36,985 nucleotides of DNA from Thermoplasmata archaeon (GTDB lineage Archaea > Thermoplasmatota > Thermoplasmata > Thermoplasmatales > Thermoplasmataceae): NCBI GenBank assembly GCA_021802205.1, contig JAKAAT010000001.1:1-36985 (forward strand). Reading direction: 5' to 3'. How positions within the stretch are numbered: the first letter of the stretch is position 1; every line of letters begins with the position of its first letter. Below are positions 13,453 through 28,584 of the stretch, in pieces. A program made the translations under genes and the position numbers. The notes beneath the pieces were generated by a model. That model worked only from the letters and a program-made list of their open reading frames with translations, did not search any database and was not told the DNA's origin.

Positions 13453-13610
13453 TATTTATATCTTTGCGGGAACACTAGTAAGATCATAAGAATATGCTTC
13501 TACTACCATCTAGGGGAAATTTACATTTTTATTGTTAGAATTTTAGTTCTTTAAACATGAGATACTTTATTTCTTATATAATAATAAAGCATACAGTTTT
13601 ACCGGTAATT

Positions 13611-14393
13611 ATGCTGAGAATAATGAAATATCCTGGATCAAAAACGAGTGTAGTGGAAGATATCCAGAGAATATACGATCAGTCCGGATGCAATGTATTC
13701 GTTGATGTTTTTGGAGGATCTGGATCCGTTGCATTAAATATCCATTCCAGGAACATAGTTTACAATGATCTGAACAGAGACCTTTACATATTATTCACTG
13801 CCCTGAAAACTCACTTTCCCTCCTTCTATAGGGCTGCTAACGCACTTGCTATGGATAGACAATTATTTTTTGATTACTATGATGGCAGAATTGTAATGGA
13901 TAATGAAGCACCAGAAGTTGAAAAAGCATTTTCAATTTTCTTCAATTTCAATGCTGGTTTCGGAGGTATGGGGGAAACATATGGTAAAAAGGATAAATCA
14001 CTATACGGAACCTACCGCAAAAATGTATCTAACCTGATTAAAGCATCTCATTTAATAGGAAAAATGAAACTCGAAAATATGGACTTCAGGGTATTAATAG
14101 AAAAGTATGATTCCACTGACACATTCTTTTACATTGACCCTCCTTATCCCGGGAAAAACTGGTACGTGCATAATTTCACAGCAGATGATTTCATGGAACT
14201 GGGTAGAGAGGTAATGGTAATAAAGGGCAAATATGCCATGAATTTCAATGCACCAGATGCATTGCCGGTTAGAGTATTCGGAAAGCCTTCTTTTGTTAGG
14301 GAAGAGGAGAACCATAACGGAAAACCGGGTAAAACTGAATCCAGAAAAATAGCCTTTTATACAAATGTAATGAAACCCTCCGGAAAATGGTAA
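13611..14393 (+). CDS. DNA adenine methylase, D12 class (Dam-like)
   Basis: KYPGSKTSVVEDI, VDVFGGSGSVALN (motif I), FFYIDPPYPGKNW (DPPY). Track start 13557; Met codons at 13611 or 13623 fit the family better. Confidence 0.88.
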   Translation: MLRIMKYPGSKTSVVEDIQRIYDQSGCNVFVDVFGGSGSVALNIHSRNIVYNDLNRDLYILFTALKTHFPSFYRAANALAMDRQLFFDYYDGRIVMDNEAPEVEKAFSIFFNFNAGFGGMGETYGKKDKSLYGTYRKNVSNLIKASHLIGKMKLENMDFRVLIEKYDSTDTFFYIDPPYPGKNWYVHNFTADDFMELGREVMVIKGKYAMNFNAPDALPVRVFGKPSFVREEENHNGKPGKTESRKIAFYTNVMKPSGKW

Positions 14394-14449
14394 GTACAGT
14401 CAAGAAAAGTATCAGTATAAATTTATTAAATAATCACACATAGTGATAT

Positions 14450-15235
14450 ATGGAATTCAGAACTGGATGCTCTGGCTGGAGTTATGACTTCTGGAAAGGA
14501 AAAGTATATGGTCTCTCTGATACACAAAATAATTTTTTGAAAATTTACTCAAAATTATTCGACACGGTGGAAATTGATTCTACCTTCTACGCTGCCCAGG
14601 GTGCAGATACCGTAAATAAATGGTATGATTCAGTTCCTGATAATTTTATCTTTTCTCCGAAAATGCCGAAAAAAATAACACATGAAGACCGTTTACAAGA
14701 GTGCGAAAATGACCTTGATTTTTTCCTTAAAAATATATTATTACTCAGGGAAAAACTGGGAATCATACTTATTCAATTACCGCCTGATTTTGTTTATAAC
14801 ATTGAAATCATGGAAGGTTTTATTGAAATGCTTCCTCAGGGCATTGAATTTGCGATTGAATTCCGACATACCTCCTGGTTCAGAAATGAAACGTATTCAC
14901 TATTGAAAAAATACGGGATAACAATGGCATGGCCCGTTCTTGATTATATAAGACCACCGTTGATAAAAACCACGGAAAACCTATACATTCGTTTTCTGGG
15001 AAATAAGGAACTAAATAAGAATCAACTGGGTGAAATTAGAATCAACAGACATGAAGAGATCAGAAACTGGGTAGGCAATATTATAAAAACCAGTTCTGGA
15101 ATAAAAACTGCTTTTATTTACGCTAACAACCATTATGAAGGTTTCTCACCAGCAACTATGAAGTATATAAGGAGTGAACTTGGATTACCCGATAATGCGA
15201 AAATGCTTGCCGACAGGCAGAAAAAACTGTTCTGA
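14450..15235 (+). CDS. DUF72 (YecE-like) family protein
   Basis: N-terminal RTGCSGWSYDFWKGKVYG; KWYDSVPDNFIFSPKMPKKITH; IEFRHTSWF; TAFIYANNHYEGFSPATM. Confidence 0.88.
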   Translation: MEFRTGCSGWSYDFWKGKVYGLSDTQNNFLKIYSKLFDTVEIDSTFYAAQGADTVNKWYDSVPDNFIFSPKMPKKITHEDRLQECENDLDFFLKNILLLREKLGIILIQLPPDFVYNIEIMEGFIEMLPQGIEFAIEFRHTSWFRNETYSLLKKYGITMAWPVLDYIRPPLIKTTENLYIRFLGNKELNKNQLGEIRINRHEEIRNWVGNIIKTSSGIKTAFIYANNHYEGFSPATMKYIRSELGLPDNAKMLADRQKKLF

Positions 15236-15289
15236 ATTTATTATTTAAAAAATATATTATTAATGCCTCAATATAATTAATATTTTATA

Positions 15290-15568
15290 GTGTTTTTTCC
15301 ATTACCAAAAATGTTAATTGAATATGCGGTAGCGTCGATAAATGCAATGCTGGGCAGGATAGATGATATAGCCATATCAGTATCTGCCATATTGATTACA
15401 ATTTTATGGATTCCGGTTGCCCTGAGTTTTTTCAGTACTGATGAAAATAAAAAATATATGGCCAGGGAAAAATTAAAAAACGCAACCATCGGAACAGTGA
15501 TATATATTCTTGCAGTCAGTGGCGTTTTATTCACAGTGTTTAACTATGTTGTAACAGGGAAACTATGA
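15290..15568 (+). CDS. VirB2/T4SS-pilin-like (CedA1-like) small membrane protein
   Basis: 92 aa, GTG start; two hydrophobic helices separated by a polar basic linker (TDENKKYMAREKLKNATIGTVIYIL), the layout of TrbC/VirB2-type pilins. Confidence 0.6.
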   Translation: MFFPLPKMLIEYAVASINAMLGRIDDIAISVSAILITILWIPVALSFFSTDENKKYMAREKLKNATIGTVIYILAVSGVLFTVFNYVVTGKL

Positions 15569-16491
15569 ATTATGGGTCTATTTTTGGAGAAATTATAAAG
15601 GTATTTACTAAAATTGCAAGGTCATCGGTAATATTGCTCTGGCATCTAACTGTAAACTATGGTCTGAATCCCAAATATTCTTACACAGAATTTATAAATG
15701 CTAACCCTGCGTTTCTATCATTCTACAATTACCTGTTCAACAGCATTTATTCGGATATTATTGTCACAGTCATTTTATTATCTGCTGTTACTACACTGGC
15801 TTATAACTCTTTCATCAAACCTTATCCGGCTACAAGACTTGTAATAAAAATAATGATTTCATCTGTCCTATTTTTTGAATCCTATAAGATATCCATCCTA
15901 TTTTTAAAAATATCCCTTGTGTTTTATAATAGCATTTACACTTTGAAACCTGACTGGTATACTATTGGTATATCCGGGCTTTCCCCGGATAATCAGATCA
16001 TAGCAGTACTGCTCAATGGCTCATATATGCTTGCCATAATTCTTCTATTCGGTGTCATGATAATAAGGCAGGCACTCATATTTTTCTTTATCCTTTTCAT
16101 TCCTGTAGCTTCAATACTTTTTATATTTCCTGGAAGTGAAAAACACGTGTTTAAATTTTACAGAATATTTTTTGAAATTTCTTTCTTTCCATTCTTTTCC
16201 ATAATTATACTATATTTACTGGGCATGTTTAACAATCCATTCCTTGATATAGGCTTAATATATGTGGCAGCAACTGCACCACTGTTTTTTGTTACAGAAA
16301 TATACAGATATTTCCAGGGCAGTTTTAATTTTCTTGAATCTGACGCAATAATGTCTGATATATCATCAAACATGGGAGGATTTAGCCCTGAAAACATATT
16401 GAGCGGGGATTCGGATAGTATTATGTCTTTACCAAATTTAGCAGAGGAACTGATACCTGAAATAGTGAACAGTAAGGGTGAGATAAATTAA
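15565..16491 (+). CDS. Polytopic membrane protein, VirB6/TrbL/CedA-like
   Basis: 308 aa with at least five hydrophobic segments; overlaps pilin-like ORF by 4 nt and precedes a VirB4-like ATPase; FFFILFIPVASILFIFPGSEKHVFKFYRIFFEISFFPFFSIIILYLL. Confidence 0.62.
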   Translation: MNYGSIFGEIIKVFTKIARSSVILLWHLTVNYGLNPKYSYTEFINANPAFLSFYNYLFNSIYSDIIVTVILLSAVTTLAYNSFIKPYPATRLVIKIMISSVLFFESYKISILFLKISLVFYNSIYTLKPDWYTIGISGLSPDNQIIAVLLNGSYMLAIILLFGVMIIRQALIFFFILFIPVASILFIFPGSEKHVFKFYRIFFEISFFPFFSIIILYLLGMFNNPFLDIGLIYVAATAPLFFVTEIYRYFQGSFNFLESDAIMSDISSNMGGFSPENILSGDSDSIMSLPNLAEELIPEIVNSKGEIN

Positions 16492-18517
16492 GATTCCTGT
16501 CAATGTATATAATTTCAAATCCTATATTTACAATATATCGCTGGATAAATTTATAATAATTATAGCAGGTATATCTATTGTAGCGATTACATCAACTGAG
16601 TACTTGCCTGCTGCAATAATAACAGGAATTGTATATTTCATTATTATGGCAATGCTGAAGTTCGAACCAGGAAATATATATTCGTTGAGGAAACTATACT
16701 TTAAAAGTTCAGAATCTGATTTAAAATTTGTCAGAAATGGTGAATTATACGGTATTTCTGGCAAATTTATTTTCACTGTACTAGAGATAGAAAATAAAGA
16801 ATTGTACACTGACAGTGCAAAGGGAATACAGATGATGACAATAGCCCGGATGCTTGATAAAATTACATGCAATGTAACTGTACAAACAAAGGCAGAAAAA
16901 ATCGGAGATGCCTTCTACTATAGAACATTTATACTTCTGAAATCAAACAGGAGCAGTTTTAACCATGCAGTTGATATTATAAGGGAGAATATTCCATCTT
17001 TTACATCCGGAAGTTCATCGAAAGCGTGGTTAGTGGATGATGAAAATTTGATTTCATCTCTGTTTTATAACAGGGTAAGTACAAATTCAAATTACTTTAA
17101 AAAAGATGAATTATATGGAACATATTTTGATGTTTTGGACACAGAGTATTCTTCAGATTTTCTTTACCAGTCCATCATCGAAAGGCTCGGGTTCGTGATC
17201 GAGTTAAATATGGAACTGGAGCCCATCAGAGAAAAAGATATTTTTCTTAGGAGGTTGATGGCCTCCAGAAAGGCAGAATTATCATACACAAAGTCCGGGC
17301 ACTTTGCCTCTCTTCTAAAGAAGCAGATCTCCTCGCTAGAATATCTGGGAAAGCAGGATAAACTTTGTAATGTATTTATGCGTTTCTCGGTTTTATCAGA
17401 ACACCCGGCACATCTAAGGGAATACAGTGATAGGTTCAGAAAAACCATGGAATCCACAGGTTTTAAAATGAGGGGATTCCATTTTTTCAATAGGGCATCC
17501 TTTAATCCTTTGGAAACCGCAACTCAGAGTAAAAAATATATGATGGATCCGGAGGCTATTTCCTCCATTTTTCCATGTGGTTTCACTACCATGCCACGTA
17601 ATTCTGGGGAACCTCTGGGTATTAATTTAATAACCGGTAAAAAAGCCTACTTAAATCTGTTCCATGGATCATCCTATAATGTTGCTATAACAGGCGAAAC
17701 AGGGTCCGGAAAATCATACTTTACAGATATGTTACTCGATAAGTTCAGGGATTCCTCATCGGTATTTATTATAGATCCACTGAAGGAATATAGCGGTAAC
17801 CAGATTATAGAACTGGGATCTGGAGAATATCCAGATTTTACAATTGGTGCTGGATTAATCAGGAATATTATTCCTGAGATAATGGGAAATATCAGTGAAA
17901 TACCTCCGGGCAAAATCAGACAAATGATGGAGACCCTTGAGAAAAGCCATAATAATATTATTTTCAGTGAACTTATTTCAGAAATTATGAAATATGACAA
18001 GGGTGGATCAGTTAATGAAAATTTTTTGACCAGAAAATTGTTCAAGATACCTGTTAAAGTTTATGGAAGCAGATGTGTGTTTCGCTTTGATTATGGCGAC
18101 ACCCGTTTCAGGGAACTTTTTTTCAGACTTGCCCTCAGTTTAACCATTTCTCTGGCTGAGAACAGGGATGGCAATAAAATAGTGGTTATAGATGAAAGCC
18201 ATCTTTTTATTAAGGAAACGAAAAATGCTGAAATGATCGATATGCTTGCAAGAAACGGTAGGCATAATAAAATATCACTGATCACCGTTACCCAGAACGT
18301 CAATGACTATTATTTTAACAGTTATGCTGAATCCATTCTGAGAAATTCTATATATTATTTTATATTCAGGCAGCATGAAAAAATTAAGGATAAACTATTC
18401 CTGGGTTACACCATTGACCCGGTATCCCTTGCAGGAGGAAGCAATTTCAATTATTCAGAATGTTTTTATTCAACAGGCACGCTTATAAGAAAATTGAAAA
18501 TATCTGAAAATAAATAA
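16487..18517 (+). CDS. PrgI/VirB3-VirB4-type T4SS ATPase (CedB/HerA-VirB4 superfamily)
   Basis: Walker A AITGETGSGKSYFTDML, Walker B KIVVIDESHLFIK, GRHNKISLITVTQNVND. In-frame extension upstream of track start 16604 (TTG) reads IKIPVNVYNFKSYIYNISLDKFIIIIAGISIVAITSTEY-LPAAIITGIVYFIIMAML, a PrgI-like 2-TM domain; in-frame stop at 16484-16486, so the start is ATT 16487 or a nearby codon. Confidence 0.8.
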   Translation: MKIPVNVYNFKSYIYNISLDKFIIIIAGISIVAITSTEYLPAAIITGIVYFIIMAMLKFEPGNIYSLRKLYFKSSESDLKFVRNGELYGISGKFIFTVLEIENKELYTDSAKGIQMMTIARMLDKITCNVTVQTKAEKIGDAFYYRTFILLKSNRSSFNHAVDIIRENIPSFTSGSSSKAWLVDDENLISSLFYNRVSTNSNYFKKDELYGTYFDVLDTEYSSDFLYQSIIERLGFVIELNMELEPIREKDIFLRRLMASRKAELSYTKSGHFASLLKKQISSLEYLGKQDKLCNVFMRFSVLSEHPAHLREYSDRFRKTMESTGFKMRGFHFFNRASFNPLETATQSKKYMMDPEAISSIFPCGFTTMPRNSGEPLGINLITGKKAYLNLFHGSSYNVAITGETGSGKSYFTDMLLDKFRDSSSVFIIDPLKEYSGNQIIELGSGEYPDFTIGAGLIRNIIPEIMGNISEIPPGKIRQMMETLEKSHNNIIFSELISEIMKYDKGGSVNENFLTRKLFKIPVKVYGSRCVFRFDYGDTRFRELFFRLALSLTISLAENRDGNKIVVIDESHLFIKETKNAEMIDMLARNGRHNKISLITVTQNVNDYYFNSYAESILRNSIYYFIFRQHEKIKDKLFLGYTIDPVSLAGGSNFNYSECFYSTGTLIRKLKISENK

Positions 18518-20462: not shown

Positions 20463-20879
20463 CTAAAGTTTAATTCTATATATAATATCCACCGAATCAA
20501 AGTCAGAATCATCAGATATAATATTATGTATACCTCTCGATAATGCAGTTGCTATGTGTATAGAATCTCTTGGCTTTAAATTATAATTTTCTGCTATCTC
20601 CATAGCTTTTATGATAATATTTAAATCAGTATTTATAAATCTCAAATTCGGATAATTTATAAATTTTTTGCCTATTGATATGGAATCTGCCTTTCCCAGT
20701 ATTTTCCATATAACATACATAACCTCATCCCATGTAAGAACAGAAGTGTATCCTATAATTTCATTATTTTCTATTCTAGATAGAATTTTTCCCGCCTTAC
20801 AAGCCTGTTCATTATCATATATAGCCGGAAAAATAAATATGTTAGAATCAATGTAAAAAGTTTCTGTCATATTCATCAT
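20463..20879 (-). CDS. vapC: PIN-domain ribonuclease toxin (VapC family)
   Basis: FYIDSNIFIFPAIYDNEQA, conserved acidic residues (TWDEVMYV, LKPRDSIHIATALSRGIHNIISDDSDFD); overlaps an AbrB-like antitoxin ORF. Confidence 0.88.
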   Translation of the reverse strand: MMNMTETFYIDSNIFIFPAIYDNEQACKAGKILSRIENNEIIGYTSVLTWDEVMYVIWKILGKADSISIGKKFINYPNLRFINTDLNIIIKAMEIAENYNLKPRDSIHIATALSRGIHNIISDDSDFDSVDIIYRIKL

Positions 20880-21123
20880 CCAGTATTCTATTTATATCCA
20901 CACTATTTTTTAGTTTTTTTGAATAAGTTGTTTCGTAGTATTTTAGATAACTCTCTGTTAATGGTTTTGCAGTTTTGATTGTAATGCTGTTCCCATTTAG
21001 TGACACAATAACCTCGGTATTTGGTTTTATGCCAGTGATATCTCTGATATCTTTAGGTATTACAACCTGCCCTTTTGGACCAATTTTCATTTTTTTCTCC
21101 ATAATAGTTATATGTATAACCAT
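20848..21123 (-). CDS. vapB: AbrB/MazE-type antitoxin (VapB family)
   Basis: MKIGPKGQVVIPKDIRDITGIKPNTEVIVSLNGNSITIK swapped-hairpin AbrB motif. First Met of the track may be upstream of the true start (MEKKMKIG). Confidence 0.88.
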   Translation of the reverse strand: MVIHITIMEKKMKIGPKGQVVIPKDIRDITGIKPNTEVIVSLNGNSITIKTAKPLTESYLKYYETTYSKKLKNSVDINRILDDEYDRNFLH

Positions 21124-27386: not shown

Positions 27387-28244
27387 ATGGTACATGTAAT
27401 AAGCACGATTAATTTAAAGGGTGGTGTAGGCAAAACCCAGACAACAATAGCTGTTTCTGAAATGCTGGCTGCTAATTATGGTAAAAAAGTACTGATCATT
27501 GATCTAGACCCACAGACAAATGCAACCGTTTCACTTATGGATGAATCCAAATGGCTAAATATGGATAAAAAGGGAAATACTATTTTCCAGCTTTTCAGTG
27601 ATAAGGTTTACGGCACAGAGCTCTTTAATCTGGAAGCTTCAATTGTTAAAAACGTATCCAATGTGAATTCAGGTATCAAGAATCTAGATCTTCTACCATC
27701 CAGTCTAAGGCTCATAGACATACAGGATAAACTACCGCTTGTATCTAATTCCGGGTATTTTGTAAAGACTCCCATTACAGTATTGAAGGAGTCATTAAGC
27801 AAGGTTATTGAAAATTATGATTATGTTATGATAGACTGCCCCCCGAATCTTGGATTAATCACACTATCCGGCATATATATTTCCGATTATTATTTAATTC
27901 CTACAGTACCGGATATACTTTCTACCTATGGAATCCCGCAGATACTGGCCAGAATAGACGCTTTTAAAAAGGATGCAGGAATTGCAATAAAACCCCTGGG
28001 AATCATAATATCCATGTACAGATCAAATAATAGATTGCACGATTCAATAATAGATTCACTGAAATACCGGGAAAGAAAGGGAGACTACCCAAGAATTCTC
28101 ACACCATACATACCATTGAGTGTCAGGGTTTCCGAGGCGGCAGAGTATCAGACCGAAGTGAGCACGCTGGGGCAGAAATATGGATATGATCTTACAGAAA
28201 AATATAATAATCTGGTGAAGGAGATCATGAAATATGTTGAGTAA
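27387..28244 (+). CDS. ParA/Soj-family ATPase
   Basis: NLKGGVGKTQTTIAVSE deviant Walker A; VLIIDLDPQTNATVSL; YDYVMIDCPPNLGLITL. Confidence 0.92.
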   Translation: MVHVISTINLKGGVGKTQTTIAVSEMLAANYGKKVLIIDLDPQTNATVSLMDESKWLNMDKKGNTIFQLFSDKVYGTELFNLEASIVKNVSNVNSGIKNLDLLPSSLRLIDIQDKLPLVSNSGYFVKTPITVLKESLSKVIENYDYVMIDCPPNLGLITLSGIYISDYYLIPTVPDILSTYGIPQILARIDAFKKDAGIAIKPLGIIISMYRSNNRLHDSIIDSLKYRERKGDYPRILTPYIPLSVRVSEAAEYQTEVSTLGQKYGYDLTEKYNNLVKEIMKYVE

Positions 28245-28584
28245 AACTAAATCTAATAATCTTTCGGAAATCCTGAGGTATATAGCAGATCGTCTTGAAA
28301 GCGATCCTGCCCTCATTGATAAGATTCATATAGATATAAGGCTCGACGAGAAAAAGAAACCGGCAAAGAGGATAAAAATAACTGAATACGGAAATGATGA
28401 AGAACTATATAAAACCCTTAAAAGTAAAAACATAGCAACCTTAAAATCCTTTATAAGGGATAACAGACTGGGAAGAGATAGTAGTATAGCGAAATTAAAA
28501 ACCAAATCAGAGCTTCTAGATTATATTAAAAAAAGGCTAGAAGAGAGGAACCATAAAGGTGATTCATTTATAGATAGGAAATAA
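28234..28584 (+). CDS. Hypothetical ParA-associated protein (possible SAP/Rho-N-like C-terminal fold)
   Basis: Start overlaps the parA 3' end by 11 nt; C-terminal helical basic segment NIATLKSFIRDNRLGRDSSIAKLKTKSELLDYIKKRLEE. Confidence 0.6.
   Translation: MLSKTKSNNLSEILRYIADRLESDPALIDKIHIDIRLDEKKKPAKRIKITEYGNDEELYKTLKSKNIATLKSFIRDNRLGRDSSIAKLKTKSELLDYIKKRLEERNHKGDSFIDRK

Follow-up and report, generated by a model that had tools for sequence, protein, structure and literature searches.

A minimal type IV secretion system fixed in the chromosomes of Ferroplasma and related Thermoplasmatales, with a probable role in DNA exchange

The acidophilic archaeon Ferroplasma carries a cassette of three genes encoding a pilin, a polytopic membrane protein in the place of VirB6 and a VirB4-like ATPase, and the conclusion that they form a minimal type IV secretion system (T4SS) fixed in the chromosome is well supported. 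The cassette was studied in a window of 36,985 nucleotides at the beginning of a 111-kb contig (C62); the genome is 85% complete and belongs to Ferroplasma in the classification used here. Two archaeal systems, Ced and Ted, were described from the Sulfolobales and Thermoproteales, respectively. Both arose from T4SS by domestication, share these three parts and show no recognisable similarity to each other (PMC9905601). We suggest that the Ferroplasma cassette is a minimal T4SS adopted by the chromosome and most likely used for cell-to-cell DNA exchange as are Ced and Ted, a reading that we regard as probable rather than firm. It is also possible, and we propose it tentatively, that the cassette represents a DNA-exchange machine of archaea, the third to have been fixed independently and one that is widespread in Thermoplasmatales. 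In Ferroplasma, it would run on a pilin, a pore and a VirB3-VirB4 motor alone, free of any coupling ATPase, and would be the physical basis of the strong recombination observed in natural populations of this genus.

The cassette consists of three abutting reading frames on the forward strand (15290-15568, 15565-16491 and the open frame 16487-18517). The TGA stop of the pilin gene and the ATG of the following gene overlap by 4 nt (15565-15568), and the stop of the latter overlaps the VirB4 frame by 5 nt (16487-16491). A first-pass annotation, made from the sequence, had described this arrangement together with intact Walker A and B motifs in the third frame; re-reading gave the same frames, overlaps and motifs (Table 1). 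A Walker A pattern scan of the genome contigs led to one locus only.

Table 1. Features of the cassette in the window
Feature	Positions	Strand	Basis or remark
TATA-like box ATTTTATA	15282..15289	+	~25 nt before ATG 15311; same sequence and distance in 6/9 genus mates
T4SS-type pilin (VirB2/CedA1-like), 85 aa	15311..15568	+	PF18895 profile; helix-loop-helix model; family alignment
VirB6/CedA-like polytopic membrane protein, 308 aa, putative translocation pore	15565..16491	+	Position, topology, weak profile match
VirB3-VirB4 fusion ATPase (open frame of 676 aa; start probably ATT 16487)	16487..18517	+	AAA_10, TIGR02746, VirB4_CagE, 4ag5
VirB3/PrgI-like two-helix N-terminal domain (putative), residues ~1-68 of the fusion	16487..16690	+	Profile matches in relatives
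Walker A GETGSGKS	17693..17716	+	Intact; GxTGSGK nearly or fully invariant in VirB4 family alignment
Walker B IVVIDE	18179..18196	+	Intact; E570 invariant in VirB4 family alignment

Two start sites need comment. The pilin had been given 92 residues, counted from a GTG at 15290; the frame stands, the length does not. This GTG, directly behind the TATA-like box, is unconserved in relatives and is rejected as the start, the conserved one being the ATG at 15311. Because the box is kept at a fixed distance from this ATG in the genus mates listed in Table 1 and the GTG is not conserved, the pilin most likely starts at the ATG and has 85 residues. The box is likely to be the cassette promoter, for which it is our candidate, and the pilin transcript is probably leaderless. 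As to VirB4, its frame contains no ATG, GTG or TTG until the TTG at 16604. In relatives, the gene starts with GTG or ATG ~9-12 nt upstream of this open frame, and the counterpart in the window, a GTG at 16478, is followed by an in-frame TAA (16484-16486). The 39 codons before 16604 are kept as protein (dN 0.21, dS 1.0-1.1 relative to the closest relatives). Since the GTG is blocked by the TAA and protein-level conservation extends upstream of 16604, the ATT at 16487 is the likely start of VirB4; the lack of a standard start (16478-16489) implies either initiation at ATT or an error in the assembly.

The suggestion that the small two-helix protein is pilin-like has been strengthened. PF18895 (T4SS_pilin) matches 25 of 26 pilin homologues, and two distant orthologues in family f5 score 34.3 and 33.7 bits, above the cut-off of 26.6 bits. 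The window copy alone stays below it, at 21.6 bits, and the VirB2-type pilin of the T4SS superfamily is hence recognised here through the family homologues. In the window pilin, two hydrophobic helices flank a charged loop and no signal peptide is recognisable; the structural model is a clean two-helix hairpin (pLDDT 77). A profile search of solved structures (PDB) returned neither CedA1 nor TedC, and Foldseek with the model gave nothing significant, the Pyrobaculum pilus 8dft (TedC) ranking fourth with an E value of 2.7. Homology to CedA1 or TedC beyond that of T4SS in general was thus not detected in these searches, which lend no support to a closer kinship with Ced and Ted. An hhalign comparison of the pilin with VirB2, TrbC and plasmid pilins, which had no power, gave no signal, and the small proteins of the Sulfolobus plasmids had no match in the PDB. 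In one relative (G028, locus L056, 12829-17703), four genes downstream of the pilin gene encode proteins of 320-405 aa that end in a pilin-like hairpin, apparently pilin arrays with added domains.

The 308-aa protein has at least five hydrophobic segments and, in relatives, always sits between the pilin and VirB4. No match was found in Pfam or NCBIfam. The profile of its family gave a weak co-linear match to PrgH (the pCF10-type VirB6) that lies above most controls: scores against PrgH and plasmid VirB6-like proteins were 22.6-24.0, compared with 20-24 for known VirB6 pairs and 12-15 for membrane-protein controls. With a smaller alignment of the family, the gap narrows and controls reach 16.4, the VirB6 profile test being low in power. 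AlphaFold, run from two sequences, returned an unusable fold (pLDDT 40). Taken together, gene order, topology and the weak profile scores are consistent with a putative VirB6, short of proof; position and topology thus fit the earlier VirB6-like assignment, for which the family models gave no match.

The motor of the window matches AAA_10 (1.4e-11), the TraC model TIGR02746 (4.7e-21) and VirB4_CagE (1.1e-6), and the top match of its profile in the PDB is the VirB4 structure 4ag5. Moreover, it matches the VirB4 proteins of the archaeal plasmids pNOB8 (1e-33) and pKEF9 (1e-32) far better than the larger VirD4/TraG-like ATPases of the same plasmids (only ~1e-3). At the family level, these comparisons show that the motor is VirB4-like, and the VirB4-type ATPase of the T4SS superfamily is present. 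Its two-helix head appears VirB3/PrgI-like, as judged in relatives: PF05101 (VirB3) scores the N-terminus of the motor at locus L032 just under the cut-off (E 1.5e-4; 22.4 bits against 23.9), and the profile of the fusion head matches the stand-alone gene of other families (E 5.6e-6), which in turn matches PrgI (E 0.0011). The window motor itself has no Pfam VirB3 match. Of the proposed fusion of a PrgI/VirB3-like domain to VirB4, the ATPase is confirmed, and the head is putatively VirB3-like, as judged in relatives. VirB3 homologues are stated to be absent in archaea, which makes the head worth checking (PMC11868833). At four loci (L041, L043, L044 and L048), VirB4 is split into a gene for VirB3 plus the N-domain and a separate motor gene, a division that recalls CedB and CedD of Sulfolobales.

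These data also bear on the alternative that there is no T4SS at all and that a HerA-type DNA helicase lies beside two unrelated membrane proteins. HerA-like models do score the P-loop region, and the VirB6-like protein lacks a family match; the good scores of the VirB4 and TraC models, the VirB3-like membrane helices at the N-terminus in relatives, the match of the pilin to its family and the fixed order of the three genes leave this alternative disfavoured and very improbable.

The cassette VirB4 is present as a single copy in all ten genus members. Across the family of Ferroplasma (f1) and family f3, 19-kb loci show the order pilin, VirB6-like protein, VirB4; in families f4 and f5, a VirB3-like gene and, in most cases, a small membrane gene stand between the VirB6-like gene and VirB4. 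A search of the phylum with the pilin profile alone matched 60 of 393 genomes, namely almost all of f1, all of f3, some of f5, and family f7, which lies outside the order; none of the f8 and f9 genomes listed gave a match. In the extra loci that were opened, a VirB6-like gene and VirB4 follow the pilin in nearly all; two loci at contig ends show no detectable VirB4. Gene-order conservation across the Thermoplasmatales, which had been named as a check, is therefore seen in most families and in one further family of the class, and the identical three genes in identical order in dozens of genomes of this class are more than chance would give. The VirB4 tree needs six label changes for six groups, close to the minimum of five, which suggests descent mostly by clade. 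The exception is L101, from another genus, which is nested within the Ferroplasma group. In three genus members (L038-L040), the cassette occupies a different site in the chromosome and its VirB4 is only ~33% identical to the window copy; their grouping with L101 may reflect a split of the genus or a transfer. The cassette is under strong purifying selection, dN/dS relative to the two closest relatives compared being ~0.03-0.04 for the pilin, 0.06-0.08 for the VirB6-like protein and 0.12-0.14 for VirB4. It is dispensable in some lineages, since G032 (one contig, 99% complete) lacks it although its congener G028 carries it.

These features matter for the question of mobility, as the cassette shares homologous parts with the conjugative plasmids pNOB8 and pKEF9 and could in principle be an integrative conjugative element that is resident or in decay. 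Relaxase, coupling protein and linked integrase, by which a conjugative element is recognised, were all missing: the genome gives four integrase matches, none of them on the 111-kb contig, and the relaxase families PF03432, PF08751 and PF03389 are absent from all ten Ferroplasma genomes, in line with the first-pass annotation, which saw neither type of gene. The Sulfolobus conjugative plasmids likewise carry no typed relaxase. Moreover, the neighbours are ordinary chromosomal genes, GC is native (34% in the cassette, 36% in the window) and the pilin was not found in viral contigs. Combined with the single copy in every genus member and with purifying selection, this evidence leads us to reject a mobile element and largely refutes the conjugative-element reading, which is scarcely credible. 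The view of a domesticated rather than plasmid-borne machine is borne out by the same data.

A VirD4/TrwB-like coupling ATPase was absent from the ten Ferroplasma genomes in searches with a single query and a profile, which returned only short P-loop or C-terminal matches to HerA-like proteins of 517-537 residues and, in G003, the cassette VirB4 itself. A TrwB/TraG-like ATPase is present in all other f1 genera sampled and in f3 and f4, usually at a separate locus, and f5 genomes with the cassette lack it. The absence is hence a trait of Ferroplasma and not of the system; the earlier remark that no VirD4 is visible nearby holds for the genus. Among 41 genomes, 24 have both the cassette and the ATPase, 12 only the cassette, one (84% complete) only the ATPase and four neither (Fisher p 0.067, with related genomes that are not independent). 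The loss throughout one genus, set against sister genera that retain the gene, offers a natural experiment on the role of the ATPase. In f3 (L061-L066), there is also a TraG/VirD4-like ATPase gene that lies, with a 200-aa gene, directly behind VirB4. The TrwB-like ATPase of the sister genera (L114, 1501-3456; also L112 and L115-L120) has a C-terminal region with an invariant D..ExE that looks like a PD-(D/E)XK nuclease-type domain.

We infer a pilus, a pore, DNA as the substrate and a direction of transport from what related machines do. Judging by its family, the 85-aa pilin would sit in the membrane and polymerise into a thin pilus, at whose base the 308-aa protein would form a putative pore through the membrane. 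Anchored by the fused VirB3-like helices, the VirB4 ring would use ATP to power pilin assembly and substrate movement, and DNA exchanged between cells would serve recombination and repair. As conjugative exporters require a coupling ATPase and Ferroplasma has none, its machine is more likely to act on the receiving side, or the parts may be shared by both sides. The absence of relaxase and coupling protein in Ferroplasma fits import, and also adhesion or protein transfer.

Archaeal T4SS-like machines could carry protein, and the same T4SS-derived machine might mediate surface adhesion or deliver proteins to neighbours rather than DNA. At the G028 locus, several genes join the pilin domain to large domains that appear to be exposed at the surface, which resembles the build of adhesive or decorated pili. 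In Patescibacteria, T4SS clusters that lack a relaxase and contain VirB2 arrays have been proposed to serve other functions by co-option (PMC12102498). We consider a role in adhesion or protein delivery unlikely, as the loci compared show no consistent linkage of the cassette to an effector, immunity or adhesin gene, the sister genera keep a TrwB-like DNA-coupling ATPase, and the nearest described archaeal parallels import DNA (PMC9905601, PMC11868833). Less likely still is natural transformation, that is, uptake of free environmental DNA rather than exchange by contact. An ATPase, a pore and a pilus could pull in free DNA, and no mating-specific gene lies nearby. Known transformation systems use a type IV pilin for uptake; the pilin here is of the conjugative (PF18895) type, which makes transformation improbable. 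DNA exchange between cells remains the reading that we favour.

Among described systems, Ced (CedA1, CedA, CedB, together with CedD and CedE) is alike in being chromosomal and relaxase-less, with a pilin, a VirB6-like pore and a VirB4-like ATPase, and neither its pilin nor that of Ferroplasma has an apparent signal peptide (PMC9905601, PMC11868833). The core combination is present in Ferroplasma, the VirB6 part by position only. The Ced and Ferroplasma pilins differ in that no significant sequence similarity was found (CedA1 in the PDB profile search), and Ced has CedB plus CedD where the Ferroplasma cassette has a single VirB3-VirB4 fusion. Ted (TedC, TedA, TedB), described as the most reduced archaeal T4SS (PMC11868833), has the three core parts in common with it. 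ParA, HerA and Rad50 are often encoded in Ted loci, as is a processed pilin (PMC9905601), whereas the ParA gene of the window lies ~9 kb from the cassette, with a similar proximity in a single further genome and a wide separation in most relatives. This gene (27387-28244) was rejected as a Ted-like partner: the window and G006 alone have it close to the cassette, and it is hundreds of kilobases off in G004 and G009. The ParA-type ATPase, with a 116-aa partner gene (together 27387-28584), is conserved in the genus (81-85% identity in eight genus mates) and unlinked to the cassette.

In addition to the VirB4 match, the pNOB8 and pKEF9 plasmids carry nearby genes for a pilin-like protein of 106 aa with three helices and for a VirB6-like protein with multiple helices; they differ from the cassette in being mobile and in carrying an integrase and a second, larger ATPase. 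The Gram-positive MPF_FATA conjugation module of pCF10 (PrgF-PrgH-PrgI-PrgJ) has the same order (small two-helix protein, VirB6, VirB3, VirB4) and a partial VirB3/VirB4 overlap, but such modules are plasmid-borne, with relaxase, VirD4 and a wall hydrolase, and their similarity to the cassette is weak beyond VirB4. Probably the same cassette is found in sister genera, namely Cuniculiplasma (CSP5_1185-1189, CPM_1190-93; arCOG04034, arCOG05369, arCOG05340) and E-plasma (PMC5155288, PMC10354927). In Cuniculiplasma, a VirB4 component, membrane proteins and a VirD4-like ATPase at a separate locus were annotated (PMC5155288), Ferroplasma differing in the lack of VirD4; for E-plasma, the annotation lists VirB4 (PMC10354927).

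Hence, VirB4 and membrane components were already known from Cuniculiplasma (PMC5155288). Both reports are annotation only, with no pilin identification, Ced/Ted link or distribution; new here are the identification of the pilin, the fixed synteny throughout the family and the loss of the coupling protein. The F. acidiphilum genome paper (PMC5473848) contains nothing on VirB4, conjugation, secretion or type IV systems. Recombination is frequent in Ferroplasma populations (PMC2704941), and among open-licence PMC papers we found neither a machine proposed for this recombination nor a link between Thermoplasmata and Ced or Ted. If a T4SS has been kept vertically across Thermoplasmatales, the taming of conjugation machines by their hosts arose or persisted far more widely in archaea. 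Several members have been cultured, so that knock-out or marker-exchange tests are conceivable.

Two further observations concern the surroundings of the cassette. A D12-class adenine methyltransferase gene and a DUF72 gene (13557-15235 in the window) lie directly upstream in seven of the ten genus members. Downstream, at 20463-21123, the window carries a VapBC-type pair made up of a PIN-domain toxin-like gene and a small AbrB-like gene.
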